Positions 7,707 to 55,954 of a stretch of 64,000 nucleotides of DNA are shown piece by piece (the stretch's first letter is position 1; every line of letters begins with the position of its first letter). A program made the position numbers and the translations under genes. Source of the stretch: Streptosporangium sp. NBC_01495 (GTDB lineage Bacteria > Actinomycetota > Actinomycetes > Streptosporangiales > Streptosporangiaceae). The DNA lies in assembly GCF_036250735.1 (NCBI RefSeq), contig NZ_CP109430.1, forward strand, positions 1,302,001 to 1,366,000. Direction: 5' to 3'. The notes beneath the pieces were generated by a model that had not been told where the DNA came from, ran no database searches, and saw nothing but the letters and a program-made list of their open reading frames with translations.

Positions 7707-9847
7707 CGTGTTTCCTCCGGTCTGGCGGGCGGATCGGAAAGGGACGGCGGGCGGACGTTCCGCCCCCATCCGGACGGCTCCGGGCCCAGCCGCAGGTGCA
7801 ACACGCCGCCCCGGTGCACGGTGGCGGCGCTCAGGTGCGTCGCGTGCAGAGGCCTGCCGTTGAGGGTCGCCGACTGGACGTACTGCGCCGGTAGGTCGCG
7901 CTCGGCGCCGTCGACGCCGATCGGTGTCTCGCGGTGCCCGCTGGTCTCGATGACGAACTCCTCGCCGCCGGTCCTGAGCACGGCCCCGGCGAACGCGGGC
8001 GCGTTGACCAGGAACAGGTTCTGCCCGGCGATCGGGAACAGCCCCAGCGACGCCCAGACGTACCAGGAGCTCAGGCCGCCGGAGTCGTCGTTACCGGGCA
8101 GCCCGCCGGGTCCGGTGCCGAACTGCCAGGTCAACGCCGCGTGTACCACCTGGGCCGTACGGTCGGGCCGTCCCGCGTAGTGGTACGCCCACGGCGCTTC
8201 CATGTCGGGCTCGTTGTTCAGCCCCTCGAACCGGTTCAGGGCGTATCCGGCGGCCATCTCCGCCGCCTGCGGGCGCCGTCCGGGCTGCGTCACCGGTGCG
8301 GCGTCGAAGCCGAAGAACCTGTCCAGCATGCCGGTGAAGGCCCGGTCGCCGCCTGCCAGGGCGATTCTCGCGGCCATGTCGTGCAGCAGGCGGAACGAGT
8401 AGTTCCACTTGCCGCCCTCGTAGAACTCCGAGTCGCGCAGCAGCCCCGTGCCCGGGTCGAAGGCGTTGGACCACTGGCGGCTGCGGTTCTCCAGGTCGTC
8501 GGCCAGGCGCCGGTCGTTCAGCGCGCGGGCGACCTTCGCCGCGCAGTGGTGGCCGTAGGCGAGGTCGAGGGTGTGGGTGATCGGGTGCACCACCCCGTGC
8601 TCGAAGAACTCCTCGCCGTACATGCGACGCAGGTCGTCGACCATGTGCACGAGCGCCCAGTTCCAGTCCAGACCCGCCCGGCCGAGCGCGTGGGCGTCCG
8701 CCAGCGCGGTGTGCACGAGCGCGCTCCCCTGGCGGTAGAACCGGTCGGCGCCGCGGGCCATCCGGTACCCGATGGGGAAGTTGCCCTCCTCCTCGCATAC
8801 CCGGATCAGCGACTCCAGCAGGTCCGCGGCCCGGTCCGGGACGATGGCCGCGAGCAGCGGCAGCTGTGTCTTGTAGATGTCCCACATGGTGCACACGTCG
8901 AACGCGAACGGTCCGGAGGTCGGCCAGAACGGGCTCTCGTCGTCGGCGAAACACGGCTTGATCAGCGAATGGTAGAGCGCCGTCGCGAACACGGTACGGC
9001 GGGCCGGTGTGCCGCCCTCGACCTGGACACGGCCGAGATGGTCGCCCCAGCGGGCCCGGGTTTGGGAGCGTACCGCGTCGAACGCCGGCCGCGCGCTCCC
9101 GCACTCGCGTTCCAGGTTCTCGCGCGCCTGGTCGCACCCGCGCAGTGAGAACCCCAGCCGTATCTCAACGGTCTGTCCCGGTTCGGTGGGGCCCATGAAG
9201 AGCATGCCGAAAGGTCGCAGCGTGGTGTGCCGGATGCTGTCGAAGTCCAGGCGGGTGCCGCCGTCGATGAGCCGCCGGTCGTACCAGAGCATCTGCCGCC
9301 ATCCCGGGCTGTCGGCCTCCAGGTACACCGACAGCGGGACGCCCTCCATCGCCACCGTGCCCTGGGCGCGGCCGTGGCCCATGCTCTCCACCTGCGCCCG
9401 CAACGGCACGGTACGGCCGTGCTCGATGGCCAGGCCGCCACAGGACAGGTCGACCACCACGCGGGCGCTGCTGTGCTCGGGGAACGTGTACCGGTGCACG
9501 GCGACCTTGGTGCCCACGGTGAGCTCACAGCGGACCCCGGTGTCCAGGGTGGCCGCGTAGTAACCCGCCTCCGCCACCTCGTCGCGCAGTGGCCAGGACT
9601 CTCCCAGCACGTCCAGCGGCTGGACCATCGGGGTGACCCGGACGTAGTTGTAGTACTTGCGGATCGCGCCGGTGCCGGACTGCTGGAAATGGGTGAACCC
9701 GGATGCCTGCAGCCGCTCGAACATCTCCTCGGGCACGCCCTCGGTGTTCTTCGTGTACCGTCCGTACCCGGTTGGGTACGCGCCGGAGTAGGCGCAGGCC
9801 GACACCATGCCCAGCGGCGACGTGGCACCCGGGTGGGTATTGCCCAC
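7703..9847 (-). CDS. GH92 alpha-mannosidase, start region damaged or non-standard
   Basis: At least 714 residues. The GH92 family hydrolyses alpha-mannosides with inversion, using calcium. GNTHPGATSPLGMV, SGTG, the NNEPDMEAPWAYHYAGRP stretch with the general acid Glu, and GNDDSGGLSSWYVW with the base aspartates are all present. The only ordinary in-frame start is GTG 9847, yet the frame upstream (to 9952) encodes 35 more codons including the conserved family N-terminus VDPFIG, then meets TAG at 9955-9953 with no ATG, GTG or TTG between. A GTG at 9972 in another frame could join by a one-base shift. So either the N-terminus is frameshifted (or a base is miscalled), or an unusual start is used. 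No signal peptide is visible. The stop overlaps the start of the glycosyltransferase. Confidence 0.8.
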   Translation of the reverse strand: MGNTHPGATSPLGMVSACAYSGAYPTGYGRYTKNTEGVPEEMFERLQASGFTHFQQSGTGAIRKYYNYVRVTPMVQPLDVLGESWPLRDEVAEAGYYAATLDTGVRCELTVGTKVAVHRYTFPEHSSARVVVDLSCGGLAIEHGRTVPLRAQVESMGHGRAQGTVAMEGVPLSVYLEADSPGWRQMLWYDRRLIDGGTRLDFDSIRHTTLRPFGMLFMGPTEPGQTVEIRLGFSLRGCDQARENLERECGSARPAFDAVRSQTRARWGDHLGRVQVEGGTPARRTVFATALYHSLIKPCFADDESPFWPTSGPFAFDVCTMWDIYKTQLPLLAAIVPDRAADLLESLIRVCEEEGNFPIGYRMARGADRFYRQGSALVHTALADAHALGRAGLDWNWALVHMVDDLRRMYGEEFFEHGVVHPITHTLDLAYGHHCAAKVARALNDRRLADDLENRSRQWSNAFDPGTGLLRDSEFYEGGKWNYSFRLLHDMAARIALAGGDRAFTGMLDRFFGFDAAPVTQPGRRPQAAEMAAGYALNRFEGLNNEPDMEAPWAYHYAGRPDRTAQVVHAALTWQFGTGPGGLPGNDDSGGLSSWYVWASLGLFPIAGQNLFLVNAPAFAGAVLRTGGEEFVIETSGHRETPIGVDGAERDLPAQYVQSATLNGRPLHATHLSAATVHRGGVLHLRLGPEPSGWGRNVRPPSLSDPPARPEETR

Positions 9848-10033: not shown

Positions 10034-10933
10034 TCAGCCCTCGGCGGCCCGGCGGTGCGGGGTGTCCCCGGGATGAGCGGGCCGCATGACGGCGGACAGC
10101 TTCGAGAGACCTTCGACGGTGGCGTTCGAGACCCCGACGATCTCGGCGAGAGAGGGGCCGCGCCCGGAGATGCTCTCCAGAACCGCCTCGAACGGTCCGT
10201 TGAGGTGTGCGGGCGAGGCGCTTCCGACGGCCGCCACGCTCACCTCGCCCCGGTGCTCCGAGATCTCGTACACACCGTCGGGGCTGCCCATGAGATGGAA
10301 GGACACCCGGGGGAGCTCGCCGAACAGCGCGGCGACACCTCCGGCGATCAGCAGGCTGTAGAGAGTGATGAGACGCTGGACGGTGGCATCCGGCGGTTCG
10401 TCCACCCGAAGGGTCTCCGACATGTCGCGCTCGTGAAGCCAGGCGTCCCACAGCACGTGCAGAGATCGCACCGACCACAGATTCTCGCGACCGGCGACGC
10501 TGCGTTCCAGGGTGGCGCCGCCCTCCTGGATGCGGGCACCGAGGCTGTCGTGCTCGTCCTCCATGACCCTCAGGAACGCCTCGACCGTCTGCTCCGGGGA
10601 CTGGCCGGCGGAGTCCTGGAGCCACAGACCGGGAGTCGAGGCGGGATCGAACGGCCCGAATCTGTCGAAGCGGCTGTGCTCTGACCGGTTGGTGAGGTGG
10701 GCGACGTGATATTCGGCCACATCGACAAGGTGGCGGACGACTTCGTGAACGGACCACCGCGTGCAGCGCGTCGGAGCCGTCCAGTCGGACGGCGTGAGCT
10801 CGGCAAGGCGACCGACGAGCCTCTTACGCTGTGTGTACAGCGCTTTGTGCAGCGCCTCCGGGCCGCAACTCAAGCCCGTCTTCTCAGTCAGTGTCAGCCG
10901 GCTCGAATCAACGGTCACAAAGACTCCGTTCAT
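10034..10933 (-). CDS. Maleylpyruvate isomerase-type mycothiol-dependent domain protein
   Basis: 299 residues. The N-terminal domain has the DinB-like four-helix fold of mycothiol-dependent enzymes (MDMPI_N). Visible are RKRLVGRLAELTPSDW, TRCTRWSVHEVVRHLVDVAEYH (first metal His) and the SVRSLHVLWDAWLHERDM segment with the further His and acidic metal ligands. A C-terminal SCP-like or MDMPI_C region follows. Members catalyse mycothiol-assisted isomerisation or thiol-transfer reactions. The true substrate cannot be read from sequence. The start is ATG 10933 or GTG 10918; the latter has GGAG five bases upstream. Stands alone. Cytoplasmic. Confidence 0.75.
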   Translation of the reverse strand: MNGVFVTVDSSRLTLTEKTGLSCGPEALHKALYTQRKRLVGRLAELTPSDWTAPTRCTRWSVHEVVRHLVDVAEYHVAHLTNRSEHSRFDRFGPFDPASTPGLWLQDSAGQSPEQTVEAFLRVMEDEHDSLGARIQEGGATLERSVAGRENLWSVRSLHVLWDAWLHERDMSETLRVDEPPDATVQRLITLYSLLIAGGVAALFGELPRVSFHLMGSPDGVYEISEHRGEVSVAAVGSASPAHLNGPFEAVLESISGRGPSLAEIVGVSNATVEGLSKLSAVMRPAHPGDTPHRRAAEG

Positions 10934-11063
10934 TTCCTCGGTGGTGCGCAGAGTACCCGACCGGATTTGAGCCTGTCGAGGATCTCCGTGACCGTCCGTC
11001 CATCGAATGTGTCGTACGTGAAAGGCCGCCGAATCGCACTTCCGCGGTTATCGGGCCACGCGC

Positions 11064-11246
11064 CTATTCCCTACGGATGCGAGAGACCTCGCCGGGGCGT
11101 CGGGGACACAGGGGGGAGCTCCGGGTCTTCTCCCGCCCGGGAGGCAGCAATTCGGCGATCCATCCGTAATCGATCTCGGCGGGGCTCATCGCCACCAACT
11201 CCACCGCCAGGTCGAGCACCTGGTCATATCTGTTCCTGGAAAGCAT
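11064..11246 (-). CDS. Small hypothetical protein, 60 residues
   Basis: ATG at 11246, preceded on its strand by AGGGGGTCCG, opens a frame that starts MLSRNRYDQVLDLAVELVAM and continues SPAEIDYGWIAELLPPG before a basic tail and TAG at 11064. The helical acidic N-terminal part looks like real protein, and the ribosome site is good. I do not recognise a family. It lies alone in the 415-base gap between two better-supported genes. The rest of that gap, 10934-11063 and 11247-11348, shows no other gene. Confidence 0.5.
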   Translation of the reverse strand: MLSRNRYDQVLDLAVELVAMSPAEIDYGWIAELLPPGREKTRSSPLCPRRPGEVSRIRRE

Positions 11247-11348
11247 CGGACCCCCTGAGGCTCTACGTACTTCCGCGTATATCGCGACGTGCGACGCATG
11301 CCAACAATTTCGTGGAAGAACGTCCGGCGAAACGAAAGGGAAAGTCTC

Positions 11349-11789
11349 ATGCGCGATATCCGCAGGACGGTGGGCGCGGTCGCGGCCACCCTGGCCCTGG
11401 CCATCGGGCCGGCGCTTCCGGCCACGGCGACGGCCCACACGCTCGCCTCCAGGACCTTCACCTGGAACAAGGTGATGAGGGCGGGCGACTGCACGATGTT
11501 CGAGGGCGCGCGGTGGACGCTGTACTCGGACGGCACGGCGACGTTCGACGGTACGGTCACCAGCGGCGACGACAACGATGCTTGGCTGATGTGGGCGTAT
11601 CTCAAGGACGCCGACAACGCCGTCCTCGGCACACTGACCAACTACCGCGTCCAGGACCCCGCCGACCGGAACAAGTTCGTCAAGAACCTGCCCAGCGAGA
11701 CCCAGCGGTACCGGTGGTTCGCCTCCGGCCGATTCGACGCCCGCAAGTTCCCCCTCATCCGGCGCATGTCGCTGGGCAAGCACTGCTGA
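11349..11789 (+). CDS. Small secreted protein, DUF6294-like
   Basis: 146 residues from ATG 11349, chosen because GAAAGGGAAAG lies just upstream and the protein then begins with a signal peptide (MRDIRRT, hydrophobic core, cut near PATATAHT). The mature part of about 115 residues includes FTWNKVMRAGDCTMFEGARW and TLYSDGTATFDGTVTSGDDN. Two Cys (in GDCTM and the final KHC) could form one disulfide. This pattern resembles the actinobacterial secreted family DUF6294, recalled from memory and unverified. Role unknown. The gene is monocistronic with its own strong terminator. Confidence 0.7.
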   Translation: MRDIRRTVGAVAATLALAIGPALPATATAHTLASRTFTWNKVMRAGDCTMFEGARWTLYSDGTATFDGTVTSGDDNDAWLMWAYLKDADNAVLGTLTNYRVQDPADRNKFVKNLPSETQRYRWFASGRFDARKFPLIRRMSLGKHC

Positions 11790-11800
11790 GCCCGAACCGG

Positions 11801-45361: not shown

Positions 45362-46696
45362 CTACCGGCCAGGGATCTCCGGAGTGACCGCAGGGTGAGC
45401 AATGAACAACATGGTCTGCTCGCGCAGGTCGAGGATGAGGGGCGTGGACTCGGTAAGGGCCAGTTGCTTGTCGATACGCTGAACCCGCTGTACGACTGGG
45501 ACTGTCCGCAACTCCGGCCGGGTGTCGAGTACACCTCGAAGCGACTCGGCTGCTCCATCCAGTTCGCCAGCTGTCAGCTGTGCTGCCACCAGGTCGAGAG
45601 TCGCCGCGGCGAGCAGGCTTGGCCCCTGGTCATTGGGATCGGTGGACAGCAGATACACCGACTCCCGCGCATGCTCTTGGGCGTGCTGCAGGTCCTCGCG
45701 ACTCCCCATTGCGTGGTATGCCTCGCTCGCGTAGTACGCAGCCTTGCCGGTTGAAAAGCGAAATACGCCCGGCTCTTCGATGAGCTCTGTCTCAGTCCCG
45801 GCCTCCCGGACATCAATGGCGGCTGCGATGACCCGAGAGAACTCGGAACGATCTTGCATCGCCGCGACGGCGCGGGCCTGCTGGCTCACCAGCCGCAGCA
45901 TGTCTGATCCGGCCGTGGCGGTCTCGCGCGCCGTGTTGGCAATGTCAGCGGCGCGACGGTAGTCGCCTCGCCAGTAGGCGACGTTGGACTGCACCCACCG
46001 AGCGTAGCTGCGCAGGCGGTTGTCTTCGGTGAGCTCGGCGCATACGAGGGCGGTACGGATGTGTGTCTCCGCCTCGTACGGGTGATTCAGGTCGGCGCTG
46101 ATGTGGGCGAGCAGCGCGCACAACTTACCCACCACGAGGTATAGGCGTCGTTCCTGATCGAGTGGGTGGCGGCTGTCCAGCACGGTGAAGACTTCGTTGC
46201 GCAGCTCGGCGACGTGGCGGAATGCGACGTATGGCGGGCGGCGCAGGTACTCCACCGCGAGCTGGCCCACGTCGGCGTCGAATTGGTCAAGGGTATGCTC
46301 GTCCACCCGGCGGATGCGCCGGGTGAATTGGGCCGAGTCGTCAGCGACCGTGACTATCTCCTCATGGGCTGTGGGGCCTGGCCTGGTTTCGTATGGTTCT
46401 CTCCAGTATGCGTGGTCACCTTCGCTAGGAACTGCCCGGGGTGGCATAGGCGTCATAAGCGGTGGAGGCGCGAACAGCTCATTAACGGAATGTTCGAACA
46501 GGTGCTCCAGAATGCGGCAGCATAAGGGGCGAGGAAGCCTCTTGATCTCTCCGGCGCGCCAGCGTTCCCACTGCCGTTCACTGACTACGTACGTGCTGTT
46601 CATGCTTCGGGACGCCTCTCCGAAGGCAGCAATGGCGTCGGCCGATGTCCAGTGGCGTCGCGCTGCCAGCGACGCGAGCAGTGTGGGATAGCCCAT
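45362..46696 (-). CDS. Helix-turn-helix/TPR regulator
   Basis: 444 residues from ATG 46696; AAGGAG lies in front, and 46729 has no site. Residues 1-80 hold an unusual HTH (TSADAIAAFGEASRSMNSTY, VVSERQWERWRAGEIKRLPR). Residues about 150-430 are a TPR-like helical array (AELRNEVFTVLDSRHPLDQE, HPYEAETHIRTALVCAELTE, EHARESVYLLSTDPNDQGPS). This resembles actinobacterial regulators that sit near secondary-metabolite genes. It is divergent from the radical SAM cluster, across about 210 bases, and so is the best candidate for controlling it. Confidence 0.72.
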   Translation of the reverse strand: MGYPTLLASLAARRHWTSADAIAAFGEASRSMNSTYVVSERQWERWRAGEIKRLPRPLCCRILEHLFEHSVNELFAPPPLMTPMPPRAVPSEGDHAYWREPYETRPGPTAHEEIVTVADDSAQFTRRIRRVDEHTLDQFDADVGQLAVEYLRRPPYVAFRHVAELRNEVFTVLDSRHPLDQERRLYLVVGKLCALLAHISADLNHPYEAETHIRTALVCAELTEDNRLRSYARWVQSNVAYWRGDYRRAADIANTARETATAGSDMLRLVSQQARAVAAMQDRSEFSRVIAAAIDVREAGTETELIEEPGVFRFSTGKAAYYASEAYHAMGSREDLQHAQEHARESVYLLSTDPNDQGPSLLAAATLDLVAAQLTAGELDGAAESLRGVLDTRPELRTVPVVQRVQRIDKQLALTESTPLILDLREQTMLFIAHPAVTPEIPGR

Positions 46697-46907
46697 TCTT
46701 TTCTGCTTTCTCCTTAGACGGGGCGGCATGGCCGGCGCGCTTCTCTAGTAATGCCGAGATTCAGTTAGAGCGCTATGGCATCGACGCGGTATGTCGTCCA
46801 AGCGTCGAAAGATGACGCCCTTATGTCGTCGTGTTGTCACTCTCCGTGCGGTCATGGTGTAGAGGGACGCTGCAAGACGGATTCCGATCGCATGCGGAGG
46901 CGTAACC

Positions 46908-47600
46908 GTGATGCCCGACCTGGCAATGATCTCTACGGAATCGCTGGCCGCCGAGATGCGATTGGCTCTGCGCCTCGCCACAGCTTCGACCCAGTACGGC
47001 GCCTTTGCTGTCCCCTCGGTGGGGCATCGTAGAGGCCTGCCGTTCCCAGATGGCCCTGGGACGCACCACCGGTTTTCCTTCCGGGGAGGCGTCCCGCAGC
47101 AGCTCGCGCTGACCGTGCTGGACGACGGAACAGCGGCCGGGCGCTTCCACGGCGGGGCGGGGTTCATGATGCTCCGCTCCCAACGTCGAGCTGAGCACGC
47201 CGAAGCGGAGGAGGCGGGGCGCCCTTTGGTGACCCGGTTCGACCCTCGCACCCTGAAGGACCTGACCGGACGGCGGGATGGCGCGATGCTGATGCTCGCC
47301 GCTTTGTGCCCGGGCATCCTCACCGACGCCGGACGAGAACAGCACGGCAGCCAGTGGCGACACACTGTACGGTTACGCGACCTGGCCAGCACCGCCTCAG
47401 CGGTGTGCGCGGTCACGCCTGGGGCGGCGGAGTTAGAGGTCACCCAGTACGGGGATCGGGATCTGTGGGACGAGTTGCAGGCCGCCTACATGGCCTGGGG
47501 TCGTGCTGGTCAGCCCGGCCGAGACAGGTTCGGCATGACCGTGAGCCTCGATGGCCAGCGGATATGGCTAGATCACCCCATGAAAGTTCTCACGCCCTAA
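46908..47600 (+). CDS. Protein resembling the C-terminal domain of PCMT-like RiPP methyltransferases
   Basis: 230 residues from GTG 46908 (or ATG 46911) with GGAGG seven bases upstream, so it is a stand-alone gene. The ending YGDRDLWDELQAAYMAWGRA, GQPGRDRFGMTVSLDGQRIW, LDHP is like the tail domain of actinobacterial protein-isoaspartyl-type methyltransferases associated with lanthipeptide and FxLD clusters (a WDE...W...G.P...RFG.TV...GQ..WLD pattern). The methyltransferase domain itself is absent. The middle (GRFHGGAGFMMLRSQRRAEH) is not familiar. It might be a substrate- or partner-binding module. A hairpin terminator follows, so it may be transcribed apart from the radical SAM genes. Confidence 0.5.
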   Translation: MMPDLAMISTESLAAEMRLALRLATASTQYGAFAVPSVGHRRGLPFPDGPGTHHRFSFRGGVPQQLALTVLDDGTAAGRFHGGAGFMMLRSQRRAEHAEAEEAGRPLVTRFDPRTLKDLTGRRDGAMLMLAALCPGILTDAGREQHGSQWRHTVRLRDLASTASAVCAVTPGAAELEVTQYGDRDLWDELQAAYMAWGRAGQPGRDRFGMTVSLDGQRIWLDHPMKVLTP

Positions 47601-47745: not shown

Positions 47746-48939
47746 ATGCCGCCGGACCTGCTTCAAACGTCGCCTTACCTCACTCATGTCGCGCCGGGTA
47801 CCGATCCATCGGTCATCTACCTGACCGACACCTTCGGACCGACCTTTCCCCAGGGGGATCCTCCGGCGGCCGACGTAGTTTTCGGGATCATCGGGCTCGA
47901 CCGCCAGATTGTGTGGCAAAACGACCAGCGGGTGCTGGAGCTGCTCACGACGTGCGCGCCGCAGCCCTACAGTGTCCAGCAGCTGGTGGGACGATTCGGG
48001 GCCGATCGGGTCGGCGCGGCTGTTGGCCGCACCTGGCTGCAGAGGCCCGACGATCTGTGCCGGGAGTATCGGCTGGTGTCAGGGGAGATCGAGGTCACCG
48101 CCCATTGCAACTGGGGTTGTCGTTTCTGCCCCGTCGCCAATGACCCGAAGCCCCGTCAGACCATGCCGATGGACCTGTTCGAGGAGATCATCGCCAAGTT
48201 GGCCGAGGTCGAAACGATCGACTACGTGACCTTCCAGTTCTTCAACGAACCCACCTTGGACAAGTACTTCACCGACCGTGTCGCGGTGCTGGCCCGGTAC
48301 GGCCTTCAGCTCGCGCTCTACACCAACGCCTCAGGACTCAACCGCGACAAAATCGACGCTCTGAGCCGCCACGGCGTTCTCCGGCATCTCATCGTCAACC
48401 TGCCCAGCACCGACCCACAGGAGTTCGCGGAGCTCACCGGATCACGCAGTTACCGGCGTACCGTGCAGAACCTAGAGCAGGCGATCCGCGCCGGATTCCG
48501 CGTCCAGATCGTGGTAAACGGTGTCGGTGAACGCCTGGTGCGCAACCTCACCGAAGTGGCTCGCCGGTATGAGCCACTCGGGGTTGAGGTCTCCCCGAGT
48601 CTGACGTGCGACCGGGTAGGCGAAGTGGGGGCGGAGTACTTCCAGGATGTGCGGATGGGCGGCCGACTCACTGGATGCGGGTGGCCGGTCCACCACGCCA
48701 ACGTCAGCGTTCGCGGTGACCTGTTCTTGTGCTGCAACGACTACTACCAGCGCGAGGTGTTCGGGAACATCCGCGACGGCTCGATCGACGACCTCATGAG
48801 CAATGACGACGCGGTGCGCCTGCGAAGGCGTGTTTTTGGGGTGGCCGAGGCCGCCGACGATTTCCTGTGCCGACGCTGCCACAACCAGAAACTCGACTTT
48901 CCCGGCCGGGACTTCCGGCCCATCGCGACCTTCGGATAA
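47746..48939 (+). CDS. Radical SAM/SPASM protein with N-terminal RRE-like domain
   Basis: 397 residues; ATG 47746 with GAGGAGG five bases upstream. C121-N-W-G-C125-R-F-C128 binds the SAM-cleaving 4Fe-4S cluster. VTFQFFNEPTLDKYF fits the GGE-like SAM region. The C-terminal 80 residues have GCGWPVHHANVSVRGDLFLC, CNDYYQREVFGNIRDGSIDD and CRRC, a SPASM/twitch pattern with further Cys ligands for an auxiliary cluster. Residues 50-105 (QRVLELLTTCAPQPYSVQQL and VGRFGADRVGAAV) look like a PqqD/RRE winged helix, which would bind a leader peptide. It probably modifies a peptide or related substrate. First gene of the operon. Confidence 0.78.
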   Translation: MPPDLLQTSPYLTHVAPGTDPSVIYLTDTFGPTFPQGDPPAADVVFGIIGLDRQIVWQNDQRVLELLTTCAPQPYSVQQLVGRFGADRVGAAVGRTWLQRPDDLCREYRLVSGEIEVTAHCNWGCRFCPVANDPKPRQTMPMDLFEEIIAKLAEVETIDYVTFQFFNEPTLDKYFTDRVAVLARYGLQLALYTNASGLNRDKIDALSRHGVLRHLIVNLPSTDPQEFAELTGSRSYRRTVQNLEQAIRAGFRVQIVVNGVGERLVRNLTEVARRYEPLGVEVSPSLTCDRVGEVGAEYFQDVRMGGRLTGCGWPVHHANVSVRGDLFLCCNDYYQREVFGNIRDGSIDDLMSNDDAVRLRRRVFGVAEAADDFLCRRCHNQKLDFPGRDFRPIATFG

Positions 48940-48955
48940 TCGGATAAGAGGCATC

Positions 48956-49918
48956 ATGTCGCAGCCAGTGCGGGTCTGGTACGTCGCCGCCCAGCGGCTA
49001 TGCAACTTCGACTGCCCATACTGCGTGTCCATCGGGTCCTGGGCCAAGAGCCGCCGCTATGACTGGAAAGACCCCGGCGACCGGGAGACGTTCACTGCGA
49101 TCACGGCCTGGCTCGGGTCGCGGCCCTTCGAGGTCGAGGTGCGCCTAGGCAGTCTGGGCGAGCCTTTTGCCTCGCCGTTCTTCCTGGAAAGGGCGGGCTG
49201 GCTCACCCAACGACCGGGCGTGCGGTATGTGGAACTGCTGTCCAACGCCTCCTTGTTGAAGCAGCGGCTGCCCACCATCGAATCTGCGGCCAACCTCGGG
49301 AAGCTGTCGCTGTGGCTCACCTGGCACGAGGACCAGATGAGTCTGGAGAAGTTCATCGGCGCCGCCCGCTTCGCGCAAGAGGAGTACGGCTGCTTCGTCG
49401 TGGTGAACGCTCTGCTGTTCAACGACACCGCGACGGTCGACCGGGTGAAGATCGCGGCGCTGGAGGCTGGACTGCGGTTCAACGCCGACCTCGGCTACGA
49501 CCCCTTCGCCCCGTCTGAGTCCTTCGAGCACACCGGCGACGCCGCAGCGGCGGTCCCGCTGATGCGGACCGCGGATGCGCTGAGCGCTGTGGTCGCCTGC
49601 GGCGGCGACGGCGCGCTCACCGAGGTTGCCCTACTGGGTCTGACCTCCCCGCTGGGCCGTCCCTGCCGCGCCGGCCACGACTACCTGTTCATCGACATCC
49701 ACGGTCAGATCTACCGGTGTTCGCGATACGCGGTCATGGACCGGAACTCCGATGGCAACATCTTGGACCCGGCGTTCGAGCTGAGCCTGCGCCCCGAGCG
49801 GTGGGCGCCGTGCGAGGCGGCCAGCGGCTGCTGCAACAAAGAGGATTTCCTGAACCTTCAGGCAGCTGACGGTCTACGAAGAGACGGCATTCCCAGTCTC
49901 GGCTGGACCGACGCCTGA
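48956..49918 (+). CDS. Second radical SAM enzyme
   Basis: 320 residues, ATG 48956 with AAGAGG upstream, 16 bases after the first radical SAM gene. C16-N-F-D-C20-P-Y-C23 near the N-terminus, then VRLGSLGEPFASPFF (GGE-like) and a barrel-type middle. The C-terminus has PCRAGHDYLFIDIHGQIYRC and ASGCCNKEDFL, a Cys-rich end like a short SPASM. It has no N-terminal extension. Two different radical SAM enzymes in a row suggest two radical steps on one substrate. The reaction is unknown. Confidence 0.78.
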   Translation: MSQPVRVWYVAAQRLCNFDCPYCVSIGSWAKSRRYDWKDPGDRETFTAITAWLGSRPFEVEVRLGSLGEPFASPFFLERAGWLTQRPGVRYVELLSNASLLKQRLPTIESAANLGKLSLWLTWHEDQMSLEKFIGAARFAQEEYGCFVVVNALLFNDTATVDRVKIAALEAGLRFNADLGYDPFAPSESFEHTGDAAAAVPLMRTADALSAVVACGGDGALTEVALLGLTSPLGRPCRAGHDYLFIDIHGQIYRCSRYAVMDRNSDGNILDPAFELSLRPERWAPCEAASGCCNKEDFLNLQAADGLRRDGIPSLGWTDA

Positions 49919-49946
49919 GCACCGATAACCCCTTGTGGAGGAACCC

Positions 49947-50756
49947 ATGCTGCTCGGTGACCTGTCTTGGCCGGACTTTGAGTCCCGGGCCCACGACGGC
50001 TACGCCATCGTGCCCGTCGGAGCCGTGGAACCCCACGGCCCTCATCTGCCGCTCGCGACCGACACAATGATCAGCGAGTACTTCGCCAGGCGGCTCGCGG
50101 CCGACCTGGACGGCGGGTATGTCACGCCCTCGATCGGCTACGGCGTCGCCACCCCGCCGTTCCGTCTCGGAGGAACCTTTCCCGGTGTCATCAGCATCAG
50201 CGGATCGACGTTCATGAACCTCATTGGCGACGTGTTGGTGGCACTCGCCCGCGACGGCGTCCGCAGGTTCGTCATCGTCAACTCCGCGATCGACAACGTG
50301 AGTTTCCTGTGCGAGGCAGCGCGGCTGCTGACCGCCGGTGTCCCCCACGCCCGCGTCATGATCGTCAACTGGTGGGACGTCGTCGGCGAACAGTTCCGTG
50401 ACGACCTGGCCGACGAGACCGGCGTTGCCCGTGACAACGATCACCACGCGGCGCTGGTCGAGTCGAGCCTGGTCATGCACATCGCCCCCGACTCTGTTCA
50501 GCCTGACCAGCTCTCCAGCGCCTCCCCCTCCGAGCGGGCACCGCGCAGGATGCGCTATCACGTTTTCCCCCTGCCAGCAGATGCCACGACCGACTCCGGC
50601 ATCGTCTACATCGCGGACAAGGCCAGTGCTGGCATCGGCGAGCGAGTCGCCGAACAGGTCGCTACGCAGATGAGGGCCGCGGTTCGCCGGGAGTTTGCCG
50701 ACCACGACCAGAGCCACCAGGCCCCGCTCGCGGACAGGCAAGGAGCCATCCCATGA
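49947..50756 (+). CDS. Creatininase-family protein with altered metal site
   Basis: 269 residues from ATG 49947, GTGGAGG upstream. Start of the family: VPVGAVEPHGPHLPLATD with Glu28, His30 and Asp39, spaced as in creatininase. Where relatives read NGHGGN or NGHYEN, residues 112-117 are NSAIDN. So the metal-binding His becomes Ala114 and the acidic ligand Asp116. A later VESSLVMHIAPDSV matches the ETS helix. Relatives include creatininase, FAPy deformylase and MftE, the protease that trims the mycofactocin precursor. The placement next to radical SAM and GT2 genes favours a MftE-like role, but the site loss suggests changed or lost catalysis. Overlaps the next gene (ATGA). Confidence 0.72.
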   Translation: MLLGDLSWPDFESRAHDGYAIVPVGAVEPHGPHLPLATDTMISEYFARRLAADLDGGYVTPSIGYGVATPPFRLGGTFPGVISISGSTFMNLIGDVLVALARDGVRRFVIVNSAIDNVSFLCEAARLLTAGVPHARVMIVNWWDVVGEQFRDDLADETGVARDNDHHAALVESSLVMHIAPDSVQPDQLSSASPSERAPRRMRYHVFPLPADATTDSGIVYIADKASAGIGERVAEQVATQMRAAVRREFADHDQSHQAPLADRQGAIP

Positions 50757-51997
50757 GACGATCACAAACCGGCGAGGACACCAAAGACAGCGGCGTGTTC
50801 TTCTTGTTCTCCCCGTCTGCTTCCTACCCACAGCCTTTCGCCTGTCTGATCGACCGTCGCGCCCGGATCGTGCACGCCTGGAGCAGCGCGCTCGAACAGC
50901 CCGACCCCGCGCTCGACCCGCCGACCTACCTGCGGGGCTGGAATCATGTGGAACTGGACGGCGAGGGAAACCTGTATGCCCTGGTTCCGCTTCATTCGTT
51001 GCTGAAACTCCGCCCGGACTCCACTCTCGCCTGGAGGGCCCAGCTGCCGGTGCATCACGACCTGGACATCGGCTTGACCGGTGTCCATGTGCTCACCGAG
51101 GAGCCTCGGTTGATCCCATGGCGCGGCGGCACCCACGTCCTGCTGGACAACACGGTGACGATTCTCAGCCGCGACGGTGACTTCCTCGTAGCCCATTCAC
51201 TGTACGACGTACTCATCTCCCACCCCACCCTGCGGTCGCTGATCGACGACGAGATCGGGCGCCGCAGAGCGAGTTCACCGGATCTCGACGCCGTAGCACG
51301 CTCCTACATCCTGAACCGGTCGAGCGGCTATCACCGGGGACGAGAGGTTTCCCGGCTTCTACGGGACCTGCCTGGCTCGCCCGCCGATGTGCTGCACGCC
51401 AACACGGTCGAGATCCTTGACGCCCATCCTGCTGGGATATGGGGACACGGCGATGTGCTGGTCTCCTTGCGAGATCTCAACCTGATCGCGGTGCTTGACC
51501 TGGCGGCCCGGTCGGTGCGGTGGTGGTGGGGGCCTGGTGAGCTGTCGGGCCAGCATCAGCCCTCCGTCCTGCCCGGCGGCACCGTACTCGTCTTCGACAA
51601 CGGTCACGGGGTGGGCCGCTCCCGAGGGCTGGAGATCGACCCGAGCAGTAACTCGATCGTGTGGCAGTACACAGCCGACCCACCGGAAAGTCTGTTCTGC
51701 GCGATGGCCGGCGGCTGCGAAAGGCTCCCGAACGGCAACATCCTGATCAGCGACGCCCAAGCCGGCCGGGCCATCGAAGTGACCCGCGATGGGAGAACCG
51801 TATGGGCCGTCCAGATCCGCACTATCCGATCGTCGTCCGCCGTCTCCCGCACAGAGCTCTACCGCATCTCAGCGGTCCCCGCCCCGGTCGTCACGACCCT
51901 GTACGGTGGCGACGAGGCGGCCCGGCGTCTGGCTCACGAACGGGTGCGGTGCGAGCTCGGCGACGATGTCCGTCTCGATCTCAGGAGCGCTCCGTGA
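50753..51997 (+). CDS. Arylsulfotransferase (ASST)-like beta-propeller protein
   Basis: 414 residues, start overlapping the previous stop. Repeated propeller strands: HVELDGEGNLYALVPLHSLL, LDIGLTGVHVL, DVLHANTVEILDAHPAGIWG, DVLVSLRDLNLIAVLDLAAR and HQPSVLPGGTVLVFDNGHGV, then CERLPNGNILISDAQAGRAI. This is the pattern of bacterial arylsulfotransferases, in which a catalytic His carries the sulfuryl group from one phenol to another. Candidate His residues are in LHANT and GQHQP. It has no signal peptide, unlike secreted ASST, so it acts in the cytoplasm and may have another role. Next gene overlaps (GTGA). Confidence 0.68.
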   Translation: MRRSQTGEDTKDSGVFFLFSPSASYPQPFACLIDRRARIVHAWSSALEQPDPALDPPTYLRGWNHVELDGEGNLYALVPLHSLLKLRPDSTLAWRAQLPVHHDLDIGLTGVHVLTEEPRLIPWRGGTHVLLDNTVTILSRDGDFLVAHSLYDVLISHPTLRSLIDDEIGRRRASSPDLDAVARSYILNRSSGYHRGREVSRLLRDLPGSPADVLHANTVEILDAHPAGIWGHGDVLVSLRDLNLIAVLDLAARSVRWWWGPGELSGQHQPSVLPGGTVLVFDNGHGVGRSRGLEIDPSSNSIVWQYTADPPESLFCAMAGGCERLPNGNILISDAQAGRAIEVTRDGRTVWAVQIRTIRSSSAVSRTELYRISAVPAPVVTTLYGGDEAARRLAHERVRCELGDDVRLDLRSAP

Positions 51998-52968
51998 TCA
52001 GTGTGATCATCCCTACCGCCGACCGTCCGGGGCCACTGCACCGGGCACTACGCAGCCTGTCGCGCCAGAGGTTCCGCGACTTCGAGGTCATCGTCGTACG
52101 CGACGGCGGCCGATCGTCGCGTCCAGTCGTGGACAGCTGGAGGTTTGAGCTGCGGCTGACACTGCGCGACGTCGATCCTCGCCAGGGTGTCTCCCACGCC
52201 CGCAACGTTGGCCTGGCCGCAGCCTCGGGGGAGTACGTCGCCTTCCTCGACGATGACGACATCTACCTGCCCGGCCACCTGGAGGTGGCCCACCGGATCC
52301 TGCGCCGGGGCGACGCCGACACCGTCTACGGCGGAGCGCTGGTCAGCCCCCGCTGGATCGAGGCCATTCCCCGCTCCCCGCACACACTGCCTCGCAAGGA
52401 CTATCCCTTCGACGACCTGTTCCTCCTGGTCGCCAACTTCATCCACACCGGCTCGGTCGTCACCCGCAACTTCACCCCCACGACGGTCCGCTTCGACGAG
52501 CAGATGACGCATTGTGAGGACTGGGACATGTGGCTATCACTGCGGCGGACCCTTGGCCACCGCTTCGCGTTCCTTGGCGAGATCACCTGCGTCTACCACC
52601 AGGTCCCACAGGCCACCAGCGCGGTCTCTGCGGCATACCGAACCAGTCCCACCCCCTTCACCCTCGCCCGCGCCCGCCTGTACGACAAATGGCCGACCGC
52701 AAACCCGCTCGTCGCCGCCCACCGCGATTGGTTCCGGCAGTTCGACGACCGCCTCGACACCTGCATCGAGCTCGAACACCCCATCCCCGCGCACAGCTAC
52801 GAACATGCTGTCCGCGCGCTCCACACCGACTTCACCTTCGCCGTCCCGCCCAGCGCGGCCCTGCTAGACGCTCTCTTGCCCGAAACTTCCCTCGCCCCAA
52901 GCGTCCCTGGATCCTCTTCTCCCGAGACCGATGGTCACTTGCGCGCGGCAGCCCATGTCTCGCGGTGA
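51994..52968 (+). CDS. Family 2 glycosyltransferase
   Basis: 324 residues from GTG 51994, AGGAG seven bases upstream; the longer frame is antisense or unrelated. GT-A fold: SVIIPTADRPGPLHRALRSL, FEVIVVRDGG, GVSHARNVGLAAASGEYVAF then LDDDDIYLPGHLEVA with the metal-binding D-x-D. The segment HCEDWDMWLSLRRT supplies the ED acceptor motif. Inverting, nucleotide-sugar dependent. No membrane helix. In mycofactocin a GT2 protein (MftF) glycosylates the product. A similar late tailoring role here is inferred. Overlaps the methyltransferase gene by 14 bases. Confidence 0.85.
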   Translation: MISVIIPTADRPGPLHRALRSLSRQRFRDFEVIVVRDGGRSSRPVVDSWRFELRLTLRDVDPRQGVSHARNVGLAAASGEYVAFLDDDDIYLPGHLEVAHRILRRGDADTVYGGALVSPRWIEAIPRSPHTLPRKDYPFDDLFLLVANFIHTGSVVTRNFTPTTVRFDEQMTHCEDWDMWLSLRRTLGHRFAFLGEITCVYHQVPQATSAVSAAYRTSPTPFTLARARLYDKWPTANPLVAAHRDWFRQFDDRLDTCIELEHPIPAHSYEHAVRALHTDFTFAVPPSAALLDALLPETSLAPSVPGSSSPETDGHLRAAAHVSR

Positions 52969-53674
52969 CAGCGTGGCAGCACCCTACGATGGCTTCGCCG
53001 AGACCTTCGCCGACGAAGCATCCGGCAGCGCTTACAACGCCTTCTACGACCGGCCCACCGTCCTCGATCTCATCGGTGACGTCAACGGCCAACGCGTTCT
53101 GGACGCCGGGTGTGGGCCCGGTCTGTACCTGGCCGAACTAGTCGCGCGAGGCGCCGATGCCATCGGATTCGACCAAAGCGCCGACATGGTCCGGTACGCC
53201 CGCCGACGCCTTGGCCCCGGCGTATCCGTATACCAACACGACCTTGATGACCCCCTTGACCGGATGCCCGACGCCACTGTTGACCTCATCCTCGCGACGT
53301 TGGTCATCCACTACGTCCGCGACCGCGTTGCCGCCCTGCGCGAACTACATCGTGTCCTGCGCCCGTGGGGACGGCTTGTCCTGTCCACCAGCCACCCGGC
53401 TGCTGACTGGCTTGCCGACGGCGGCAGCTACTTCGACGCCCGACACGTCGAAGAGACCTGGTCCTGTGGCCTGCTCCACAGATACTGGCGTCAGCCCCTC
53501 CAGCGCTGGGTCGAGGAGTTCACCGCCGCGAACTTCACCATCGAACACCTGGTGGAACACCGGCCCGTACCGAAAATGGCGCACCGGCACCCAGCCGAAT
53601 ACATCAAACTCTCCCGCGAGCCCGGATTCATCGCTTTCCGTCTCGTCAAGCGCCCTACCCAAGCCCCATGCTGA
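52955..53674 (+). CDS. Class I SAM-dependent methyltransferase
   Basis: 239 residues from ATG 52955 (GTG 52973 also possible). Motif I VLDAGCGPGLYLAELVARGA, acidic GFDQSADMV, motif II/III VDLILATLVIHYVRDR and VLRPWGRLVLSTSHPAADWL. The C-terminal part, including WVEEFTAANFTIEHLVEHRP, is the substrate lid. The AdoMet site is complete. The target cannot be stated; placed in this operon it probably O-, N- or C-methylates the product. Confidence 0.86.
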   Translation: MSRGDSVAAPYDGFAETFADEASGSAYNAFYDRPTVLDLIGDVNGQRVLDAGCGPGLYLAELVARGADAIGFDQSADMVRYARRRLGPGVSVYQHDLDDPLDRMPDATVDLILATLVIHYVRDRVAALRELHRVLRPWGRLVLSTSHPAADWLADGGSYFDARHVEETWSCGLLHRYWRQPLQRWVEEFTAANFTIEHLVEHRPVPKMAHRHPAEYIKLSREPGFIAFRLVKRPTQAPC

Positions 53675-53719
53675 CCGAGAAGTAGACAGAACAGCTGTGC
53701 TGAACTGCAAAAATACACT

Positions 53720-54301
53720 ATGACATTGCCGACGCTGGCCGTCGTGAGCGGTCCACCCGGAACGGGCAAGACGACGCTCGCACACGAGCTCGCCCATCAG
53801 CTCGGGTGCCCTGCGATCATCCGGGATGAAATCAAACAAGGGATGGTCCTGGCCACCCCGGGATTCACGCCCAGCTCAGAAGACCCGCTTAATCTTCCCA
53901 CGTTGACCGCGTTCTTCACCGTGCTGCAGGTCCTGCTCCGTGCTGGCGTGACAGTGGTCGCCGAGGCCGCTTTCCAGGACCGGCTGTGGCGCCCGAACCT
54001 GGAACAGCTCGCTGATCTCGCACATATCCGGGTCATCCGCTGCACGGTTCCGGCAGAGATCGCCCAGGGGCGGATCGCTCAGCGCGCCGAGCACAGCAAA
54101 CACCGGGCGGCACACGCTGATCACGATCTCCTCAAAGCCATCGCGGCGGGACAACACTCAATCGAGTCCTTCGCGCCGATCTCTCTGAACGTCCCCACGC
54201 TGATAGTGGACACCGCGAACGGCTACAGCCCCGATATTCAGCACATCGCCGCCTTTGTCGGACCATCGCCACAGAACGGTTCCCCAGCCAACGCAAGATG
54301 A
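53720..54301 (+). CDS. P-loop kinase-like ATPase (zeta-toxin/AAA-like)
   Basis: 193 residues, ATG 53720. VVSGPPGTGKTTLAHELAHQ is Walker A (residues 8-27). PAIIRDEIKQGM and VTVVAEAAFQDRLWRPNLEQ resemble small-molecule and zeta-type kinases; IRVIRCTVPAEIAQGRIAQR gives the lid Arg residues. No Walker B with DExx is clear. It would phosphorylate a small molecule, possibly the product of the preceding enzymes. It is 45 bases after the methyltransferase and last in the run, before a terminator. Confidence 0.75.
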   Translation: MTLPTLAVVSGPPGTGKTTLAHELAHQLGCPAIIRDEIKQGMVLATPGFTPSSEDPLNLPTLTAFFTVLQVLLRAGVTVVAEAAFQDRLWRPNLEQLADLAHIRVIRCTVPAEIAQGRIAQRAEHSKHRAAHADHDLLKAIAAGQHSIESFAPISLNVPTLIVDTANGYSPDIQHIAAFVGPSPQNGSPANAR

Positions 54302-54406: not shown

Positions 54407-54640
54407 TCAAGCCAGGGTGTCGAACTCGCCGCTCTTGACGCCGCCGATGAAGGCTCGCCACTCGCCGGGAGTGAAGGCCAGGCGGGGGCCGTCGGGGTTC
54501 TTCGAGTCACGCACCGCGTACGCGCGGTCGTGCCGCTCGTTCCCGACCTTCGAGATCACCGCGACCTCGACGCAATTTTGTCCGTTTCCGCTTCGCGAGC
54601 TCTTGCGCCACACTTCGCCGGCCGGTTCTGACGCGGACAT
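54407..54640 (-). CDS. DUF397 protein 1
   Basis: 77 residues, start ATG 54640 (AGGAGG four bases upstream; ATG 54643 would be one base away). Family pattern: WRKSSRSGNGQNCVEVAVIS, VRDSKNPDGPRLAFTPGEW and FIGGVKSGEF. DUF397 proteins are small partners of DUF5753/XRE regulators (the abaA/whiJ type) and modulate their DNA binding in development and antibiotic control. It is third in the minus-strand run with the XRE gene and a paralogue. Confidence 0.88.
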   Translation of the reverse strand: MSASEPAGEVWRKSSRSGNGQNCVEVAVISKVGNERHDRAYAVRDSKNPDGPRLAFTPGEWRAFIGGVKSGEFDTLA

Positions 54641-54662
54641 CATGCCTCCTGACATCAGGTCT

Positions 54663-54872
54663 TCAATCTAGGTCGAAAGCGCCGACCTTGACACCGTTGA
54701 CGAAGGTCTGCCAGTCACCGGGAGAGAAGATCAACGCGGGACCGTGTGGGTTCTTGCTGTCGCGAACAGCCACGATGCCGGTGAGGTTACCGGCGACCTC
54801 GACGCACTGGCCGTTGCCACCGCTGCGGCTGCTCTTACGCCACTCGGCGCGGGACAGATCTGGTGCGGTCAT
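54663..54872 (-). CDS. DUF397 protein 2
   Basis: 69 residues, ATG 54872 with AGGAGG upstream. AEWRKSSRSGGNGQCVEVAG, VAVRDSKNPHGPALIFSPGD and WQTFVNGVKVG repeat the pattern of the neighbouring paralogue at about 50% identity. A recent duplication is likely. Lies just after the XRE gene; partner role as for the paralogue. Confidence 0.88.
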   Translation of the reverse strand: MTAPDLSRAEWRKSSRSGGNGQCVEVAGNLTGIVAVRDSKNPHGPALIFSPGDWQTFVNGVKVGAFDLD

Positions 54873-54886
54873 CCCGCCTCCTAACA

Positions 54887-55741
54887 TCAGGTTTTCTGCG
54901 CGAAGTCGGCAGTCAGCTTACGTGAGGCTTCGGGGCTGAGTGCCAGGCCGCGAAGATAGTCAAAGACCAGGTTATACCGGTTAATCTCGACCTCTGCCTC
55001 CAGGAAAAGATCACCGGCCATGCTTTCGAGGTACACGATATCTGGGTCAGGTGCCGGGAAGTGAAGGACGGCGAACGAACCTTGTATACCAGGGTGGGCA
55101 CCGACATCGAACGGGATGACCTGGAAGGTCACGTTAGGTATGGCACTCACTTCGATCAGGTGCTCAAGCTGCTTCCGCATGATCTTCGCGCCGCCGACGC
55201 GACAGTGCAGGGAAGCTTCGGAGACGATGGCCGACAGTTGAAGAGGAGTGCTGCTCGTTAGAAGCTTCTGGCGTTCCATCCGCGCTTGCACCCGGCTGTC
55301 AACGTCGTCACCGCTGATGGCAGGTAGTACGCCCCTGACGAGTGCCTCGGCGTACTCCTGGGTTTGGAGAAGGCCGGGCATGTAAAGCGACTCGTAGTTT
55401 CGTACGGATTCCGCTTCTGACTCGAACCCGATGTAGGTCGTGTAGTGCTCAGGCAGTTCGGAGGGGAAGGAGTGTAGCCATCCGCGCTGTGCGGCTTCCC
55501 GAGACAGCGCTATGAGTTCCGTGCGATGGGGCTCCGGGACGCCGTAAAGATCGAGAAGTGTCTGAAGGGTGCGGGCCTGCGGACGGGCTTTGGCGGTCTC
55601 GATCCGGTACAGGGTGACGGTGTTGATGGACGTGCGAGCTGTCACGTCCTCTCGCGTCATCTGCGCAGAGTCGCGGAGTTGCCGCAGCTCAGCGGCGAGG
55701 CGGCGGAGCCGAACGGTTGAGACGTGGCGACGGCCGGACAC
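54887..55741 (-). CDS. XRE-family regulator with DUF5753
   Basis: 284 residues from GTG 55741, preceded by AAGGGG; the longer frame up to 55882 looks non-coding. HTH (residues about 10-70): LRRLAAELRQLRDSAQMTRE and DVTARTSINTVTLYRIETAK. The rest is DUF5753 with YIGFESEAESVRNYESLYMP, GLLQTQEYAEALVRGVLP, RQKLLTSS and FQVIPFDVGAHPGIQGSFAV. These regulators (WhiJ-like) act with DUF397 partners, both of which follow here. Targets unknown. Confidence 0.88.
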   Translation of the reverse strand: MSGRRHVSTVRLRRLAAELRQLRDSAQMTREDVTARTSINTVTLYRIETAKARPQARTLQTLLDLYGVPEPHRTELIALSREAAQRGWLHSFPSELPEHYTTYIGFESEAESVRNYESLYMPGLLQTQEYAEALVRGVLPAISGDDVDSRVQARMERQKLLTSSTPLQLSAIVSEASLHCRVGGAKIMRKQLEHLIEVSAIPNVTFQVIPFDVGAHPGIQGSFAVLHFPAPDPDIVYLESMAGDLFLEAEVEINRYNLVFDYLRGLALSPEASRKLTADFAQKT

Positions 55742-55954
55742 GGGGTCCCCTTCTGGCTGGATGGCGCAACCCGAGTTTGCCGGTGATCTCGTCGCAAGAC
55801 AACTTAGGTAAAGATGAGTTCGCAGTGTTGCGAAAGTAAGGCAGCGCATGCAAACTTGTGTCGAGGTTTCCAGGCTTGGCAATCACAAGCACGGAAAGTC
55901 ATCAGACGGTTACCTGTCGACGATTTCGGGCTGTCCAGCGGGGAGTGAGGCGAA

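Follow-up and report, generated by a model that had tools for sequence, protein, structure and literature searches.

Gene content of the locus

Analysis of a 64,000-nucleotide stretch of Streptosporangium sp. NBC_01495 (contig NZ_CP109430.1, positions 1,302,001 to 1,366,000; the whole 64 kb stretch is called the window below) revealed a run of seven head-to-tail frames on the plus strand at 47746–54301 (6.6 kb), in which neighboring genes either overlap slightly or lie no more than 45 bases apart. An earlier note on this DNA had described seven genes on one strand with these gaps and overlaps, and all the open frames were found where it had placed them. The host genome measures 11.1 Mb, and the G+C content of the operon is 65.3%, compared with 69.3% for the whole window. 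The first gene, rS1 (47746–48939), encodes a radical S-adenosylmethionine (SAM)/SPASM enzyme of 397 residues with a predicted N-terminal winged-helix/RRE-like domain (about residues 1–105). It is followed after 16 nt by rS2 (48956–49918), which encodes a second, STM4011-like radical SAM enzyme with extra conserved C-terminal cysteines. After a further 16 nt, or 28 nt with an alternative ATG at 49947, crea (49935–50756) encodes a creatininase-fold protein with an altered metal site (PF02633, 1.5e-51) and overlaps by 4 nt with asst (50753–51997), the gene for an ASST-like (Arylsulfotran_2) protein (PF14269, ASST_2, 1.5e-14). The family 2 glycosyltransferase gene gt2 (52003–52968; PF00535, 4.3e-21) starts with GTG 5 nt beyond asst, or overlaps it by 4 nt if an alternative GTG start at 51994 is used. 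The class I SAM-dependent methyltransferase gene mt (52931–53674; PF08241, Methyltransf_11, 3.3e-20) overlaps gt2 by 38 nt, and a gap of 45 nt separates it from kin (53720–54301), which encodes a small P-loop kinase (AAA_33; PF13671, 2.8e-16).

Conserved gene order and distribution

rS1 was used to scan 345 genomes of the order, plasmids and GTDB contigs, and rS2 to scan 394 genomes of the class, 148 genomes of the genus of Nocardia gamkensis (locus L025), 295 of the genus of Streptomyces hiroshimensis (L017) and 248 of the family of Bradyrhizobium macuxiense (L023); every genome count includes loci already known. rS1 is present in five genomes of the order, among them the host itself and one decayed copy. 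The plasmid scan gave three good matches, and 11 true loci were recognized among the 14 listed from the GTDB contigs; the other three (L027–L029) were dropped, as they match about a quarter of the rS1 length and contain no other core gene. rS2 was found in two genomes of the class, in seven of the L025 genus, in four of the L017 genus and in a single genome of the L023 family, namely that of L023. The 55 pattern matches in viral contigs included no relative.

All seven genes occur in the same order in 16 loci (the window, L009–L012, L016–L021, L026, L036 and L049–L051), located on actinomycete chromosomes and three plasmids. L022, whose contig ends inside rS1, was not counted, and L024, which is the same contig as L014, was counted once. 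L011 and L020, L019 and L026, and probably L021 and L049 are near-duplicates, so the number of independent cases is smaller. The mt gene holds the same place in the 15 other loci, and each of 11 cassette genomes contains a single asst-type match at 1e-10 (one of them a fragment at a contig end). With the same order in 15 further loci, near-duplicates included, the grouping of the seven genes is far beyond chance. The earlier note had proposed gene order in other genomes as the check on its operon and took a lack of conservation as the argument against it; the order is kept, supporting the idea that the genes behave as one unit. Downstream of the intact genes in L021 (17473–17831) and L049 (15429–15787), short repeated mt and kinase fragments look as if they derive from a decayed partial duplication.

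DNA comparison of the whole window with four stretches of 17–21 kb containing L012, L015, L016 and L017 (threshold 1e-10) revealed similarity solely between 47731 and 54304. The left edges of similarity lie at most 15 bases from the first start codon; on the right, similarity ends either with the last stop codon or no more than 46 bases before it. The copy in a congener, L015 (9803–13960), is decayed: its rS1 matches in two pieces, and three clean gaps are seen relative to the window. The first runs from the end of rS2 through the whole of crea into the start of asst, the second takes in most of gt2, and the third covers the mt/kin junction. Since the similarity ends near the operon borders, the cassette moves as a unit, and the confined similarity together with the decayed L015 copy indicates that it is gained and lost as a unit. 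The cassette has sharp DNA edges and a patchy distribution and is probably horizontally mobile.

A five-gene core in rearranged relatives

Five rearranged loci (L013, L014, L023, L025 and L052) keep the rS1, rS2, creatininase, ASST and GT2 genes in other orders. L013 and L014 additionally encode a carbamoyltransferase, a GT4 protein, a HAD phosphatase, an epimerase and one protein without family assignment (working label ROK-like). A long methyltransferase is additionally encoded in both L025 and L023 (Bradyrhizobium). In L025 it is accompanied by an Asn-synthase-like protein, an ABC ATPase and a histidine phosphatase, and in L023 by an MFS exporter, an EcKL-type kinase and a HAD protein that exceeds the curated pyrimidine 5'-nucleotidase cut-off (162.3 vs 142.9 bits). 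L052 is arranged as ASST-GT2-long methyltransferase-rS1-rS2-crea, with a convergent kinase gene. L023 and L025 gave no match to the P-loop kinase. The EcKL kinase of L023 has a 32% identical relative on the opposite strand, about 1 kb outside the L025 cluster. Phosphatases are encoded in L023 and L025, and also in L013/L014, which retain the P-loop kinase. In L025, the rearranged cassette is split into two halves by genes on the opposite strand for a decarboxylase and an AMP-forming ligase (6834–9703, minus strand); these score highest, at values under the cut-off, against TIGR03099 and TIGR03098, two models associated with exosortase A.

The five core proteins have diverged in parallel, with pairwise distances that correlate at 0.88–0.96 over 18 loci. 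As the core is kept in rearranged loci with different additional genes, the five genes form a unit and the rest is tailoring.

The two radical SAM enzymes

In rS1, the Radical_SAM and SPASM domains of Pfam are matched at 6e-17 and 5e-8, and the closest solved relative by sequence is BtrN (1.1e-16). The CxxxCxxC motif and the C-terminal cysteines are invariant in the 16 rows compared, so that the rS1 sequence contains both the motif and the C-terminal Fe-S cysteines of the BtrN type. It scores below every NCBIfam cut-off among the matches listed (25 of 29 rows). Foldseek comparison of the rS1 model (predicted local distance difference test [pLDDT] score of 76.5) matched SuiB, DesII, BtrN, TigE, SkfB and also BlsE, with SuiB first and SkfB reaching the highest TMq (0.54) among the 50 rows listed. 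The N-terminal domain is predicted to consist of strands followed by helices, a topology like that of the PqqD/RRE fold. PqqD gave no Pfam match in rS1, and MftB was not among the NCBIfam rows shown. When a PqqD profile built from 16 of 17 loci was compared with the rS1 N-terminus by hhalign, the probability was 2.4%, the best of 17 comparisons besides the positive control and not significant.

In rS2, there is no Pfam radical SAM match; the CxxxCxxC motif is present, and the STM4011 radical SAM model NF038073 scores 59.5 bits against a cut-off of 200. Its cysteines C16/C20/C23, C237, C255, C286 and C292 are invariant in 16 rows. The rS2 model (pLDDT of 86.2) matches radical SAM folds including viperin, with a TM score of about 0.5; no close solved relative was found, and the fold searches place rS2 only in the radical SAM superfamily.

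The creatininase-fold, ASST-like, GT2 and kinase proteins

The crea protein aligns over its full length with creatininase and matches creatininase structures at 3e-40. The metal ligands of creatininase, which we take to be E34, H36, D45, H120 and E122 (positions read from the alignment), are kept at the first three places in the window protein, while H120 is replaced by Ala and E122 by Asp (NSAIDN in place of NGHYEN). The same two replacements are found in the other 11 canonical rows compared. Glu is absent from the E122 place in all 17 rows (one locus being present twice), and H120 is kept in L013, L014/L024 and L025. The Asp at the E122 place could still bind metal.

In the ASST-like protein, H41, H102, N217, R240 and H268 are invariant in all 10 rows compared, four of which lie outside the cassette; H102, N217, R240 and H268 make up the active-site His/Asn/Arg set of ASST enzymes. 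A signal peptide is not obvious by eye. The protein keeps the invariant His, Asn and Arg of its family, and sulfate transfer is its predicted activity. The closest structure to the gt2 protein is the PglI glucosyltransferase (2.5e-63, profile positions 2–291 of 309), and the best solved match of the kinase is 2rhm, annotated as "putative kinase" (7.9e-20).

Search for a precursor peptide

The earlier note had suggested looking for conserved small open reading frames (ORFs) beside the operon. A first scan of 17 loci was too noisy because of low-complexity frames, and a stricter scan of 321 small ORFs around 11 of the 17 loci yielded no convincing recurrent precursor peptide. All strong recurrent matches coincide with regulator genes or, for L009, L018 and L050, also with the stretch between regulator and rS1. 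Three weak ones link L017 with L052 (6.8e-4), L009 with L018 (18 residues, 0.002) and L018 with L052 (0.003), the last falling inside the L018 methyltransferase gene. DNA alignment of the regulator-rS1 stretch from eight Nocardia-type loci revealed a nearly invariant part beside the regulator and then gaps whose lengths are not divisible by three, and the stretch is therefore read as a promoter and not as a peptide gene. A distant precursor may lie outside the searched stretches.

Comparison with known systems

The cassette resembles the mycofactocin system (mftABCDEF) in that a radical SAM/SPASM enzyme, a creatininase-fold protein and a family 2 glycosyltransferase are encoded together in both. 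It differs in having two radical SAM enzymes, an altered creatininase metal site and additional ASST, methyltransferase and kinase genes. With the mycofactocin components defined as in PMC3023750, the MftC model (TIGR03962) gave 21.5 bits on rS1 against a cut-off of 265 and was not among the four families listed for rS2, the MftE model (TIGR03964) gave 90.1 bits on crea against 172, and the MftF model (TIGR03965) gave 64.5 bits on gt2 against 280. The MftA precursor (TIGR03969) had no match in the host genome; it was missing from 8 of the 12 cassette genomes, the host included, and present in 4. MftD was not found among the genes scanned. Membership in the mycofactocin system was rejected, as MftA is missing from the genome and the MftC, MftE and MftF models score well below cut-off. 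In agreement with the earlier note, no MftA match was found in the genome and no MftD among the scanned genes; its further statement that MftB is absent is less secure, given the PqqD/RRE-like topology predicted for the rS1 N-terminus. The mycofactocin enzyme logic that it proposed is reduced to shared superfamilies by the low Mft scores and the two changed metal-ligand places of crea.

Among the closest known systems, BtrN (the 2-deoxy-scyllo-inosamine dehydrogenase of butirosin) shares with rS1 the core, a SPASM-type C-terminus and a similar fold, and is grouped with the further sugar-acting radical SAM enzymes SpeY, BlsE and DesII. Unlike BtrN, rS1 carries an additional domain of about 105 residues at its N-terminus, and the cassette contains no aminocyclitol pathway genes. 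By fold comparison, the architecture of rS1 is like that of the SkfB/SuiB-type RRE-radical SAM-SPASM peptide maturases, whereas no precursor peptide was detected with the cassette and rS1 stays under the NCBIfam cut-offs among the matches listed. Cpz4 of caprazamycin, according to PMC4257720, is a 3'-phosphoadenosine 5'-phosphosulfate (PAPS)-independent ASST in an actinomycete specialized-metabolite pathway. The two systems share an ASST-type protein in an actinomycete cluster. The seven genes include neither a PAPS-dependent partner sulfotransferase nor a pyrone synthase, and the pathways are otherwise unrelated.

Two further candidates were rejected. Ascamycin-type clusters contain different genes. 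Anti-phage defense was dismissed because PADLOC models were matched in part only and at the superfamily level: pVip by rS1 (30 bits), a portion of mad2 by mt (78 bits) and P-loop models by kin (at most 23 bits). A radical SAM metabolite cluster is a known kind of system, and no description of this gene set was found in the open-licence literature searched, in agreement with the earlier note, which knew of no described pathway of this kind.

Regulators and flanking genes

Divergent from the operon, an NsdA-family TPR-like regulator is encoded at 45362–46729 on the minus strand (NF053720, 124 bits against a cut-off of 75). An NsdA-family regulator also lies beside the cassette in L011, L051 and L052, and relatives of the L011 protein occur in L010 and L020; the divergent protein of L012 falls below the family cut-off. 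The regulator region of the window has no DNA similarity to L012 or L015–L017. In L009, the gene divergent from the cassette (10295–11797, minus strand) encodes a 501-residue protein in which helix-turn-helix (HTH) and peptide deformylase domains were read, and the same protein is found in L018, L019, L021, L022, L026, L049 and L050, giving eight Nocardia-type loci.

A doubled GCGGGACCCCC lies between the NsdA-type regulator and rS1 in L010 (11775–11796), L011 (11777–11798), L020 (9777–9798) and L051 (12550–12572); among the fetched loci it was otherwise found only in L046 and L047, short overlapping loci of two of the same genomes. A different, nearly invariant stretch with a repeated CGTGAGTA is common to the Nocardia-type loci. 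Both repeats look like operators of the local regulator, and the doubled GCGGGACCCCC is a likely operator of its lineage. Neither was found when sought in the window, so the window regulator is linked to the operon by family only and may possibly control it.

Between regulator and operon, a frame of about 230 residues (46908–47600, plus strand) matches only the C-terminal part (215–362 of 363) of TIGR04188, a methyltransferase of ATP-grasp peptide maturase systems, with 69.7 bits against a cut-off of 380, and is probably a remnant. Beyond the operon, two small proteins encoded at 54407–54655 and 54663–54887 on the minus strand, which we take to be DUF397-like, resemble small proteins that neighbor HTH regulators in L016 and L017. 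They adjoin an HTH-DUF5753 regulator of the Sco1979 type (54887–55882, minus strand) that is convergent with the operon end, and relatives of this regulator lie near L012, L016 (also by profile), L017 and L036.

Discussion

We consider it reasonably probable that the seven genes form a self-contained mobile cassette for one specialized small metabolite. Since the set includes no scaffold builder, the substrate would probably come from primary metabolism. The two radical SAM enzymes would oxidize or rearrange this small substrate, rS1 being nearest by sequence to the sugar/cyclitol dehydrogenase BtrN. The molecule would also be glycosylated by the GT2 enzyme, methylated by the mt protein and probably sulfated by the ASST-like protein. 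For the creatininase-fold protein with its altered site, an amide or ring step by non-standard chemistry is conceivable, and phosphorylation by the kinase may provide self-protection or a transient tag. This role of the kinase is suggested because L023 and L025 have an unrelated kinase instead. The glycosylated small molecule that the earlier note had offered among its possible products is plausible.

Several observations weigh against a small-metabolite cassette. No exporter and no scaffold-making enzyme is encoded among the seven genes, which leaves the substrate a guess, and the ASST enzymes described so far need an aryl sulfate donor, none of which was identified here. The alignment of rS1 with BtrN covers two stretches, the radical SAM and SPASM parts only, and the possible RRE-like domain of rS1 may point to a peptide. 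mt has no tblastn match in L013/L014, the distance correlations drop to 0.65–0.93 over the 13 canonical loci alone, and the L025 kinase lies about 1 kb outside its cluster on the other strand; a self-protective kinase is something we infer only.

If the seven genes were ordinary neighbors with separate roles, their co-occurrence would be a coincidence, and every family is indeed common by itself. The order in 15 other loci, the core kept under rearrangement, the patchy distribution, the decay in a congener and the one asst-type match at 1e-10 per genome in 11 cassette genomes make this hardly credible. A ribosomally synthesized and post-translationally modified peptide or a mycofactocin-like redox cofactor deserves more weight. 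Here, the RRE-like domain of rS1 would bind the leader of an unrecognized or distant precursor, the radical SAM enzymes would modify its core, crea would trim it and the GT2 enzyme would glycosylate it. The predicted strands and helices of the rS1 N-terminus, the Foldseek ranking (SuiB first, SkfB with the highest TMq of 0.54 among the 50 rows listed) and the resemblance of the enzyme families to MftC, MftE and MftF are consistent with such a peptide. The 321 small ORFs of 11 loci gave no convincing recurrent peptide, however, the Mft models score well below cut-off, MftA is unmatched in 8 of the 12 cassette genomes, the 2.4% PqqD match is not significant and two metal-ligand places of crea are changed. 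We consider the peptide unlikely, and keep it under consideration because of the rS1 N-terminus.

Rather improbable, too, is a pyrimidine nucleotide or nucleoside substrate, with a phosphorylated nucleoside being glycosylated, radical-modified and freed by a phosphatase as in cytosylglucuronate-type pathways. This scheme, a possible special case that rests on L023, would accommodate the pyrimidine 5'-nucleotidase-type HAD protein of L023 (162.3 vs 142.9 bits), the match of the rS2 model to viperin and the fold matches of the rS1 model to BlsE, DesII and BtrN. BlsE acts on cytosylglucuronic acid, according to PMC3715490. These fold matches are at the level of the radical SAM superfamily (TM scores of about 0.5), though, and the core contains no nucleoside-specific enzyme. 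The nucleotidase is found in one of the five rearranged clusters, and its protein was unmatched in the remaining fetched stretches that were searched, a set that did not include the window.

The small-metabolite cassette fits the additional genes of its relatives: carbamoylation, a second glycosyltransferase, phosphatases and exporters are what a family of related, secreted products would call for. The seven genes span 6.6 kb, stay together in different genera and on plasmids, and have a rearranged relative in another phylum; they are apparently a complete pathway small enough for whole transfer to a laboratory host. Because the set lacks the scaffold enzymes by which clusters are classed, class-based genome mining could well miss it. 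Two uncharacterized radical SAM enzymes and a creatininase-fold protein whose metal site is altered come together here in one genetic unit, with natural variants for comparison. More tentatively, it may represent a new class of radical SAM natural products made without a peptide precursor, polyketide or non-ribosomal scaffold, in which a common metabolite would be turned into a glycosylated, sulfated and kinase-guarded signal or antibiotic, the creatininase fold would be reused for new chemistry, and tailored versions would extend from actinomycetes to Bradyrhizobium.

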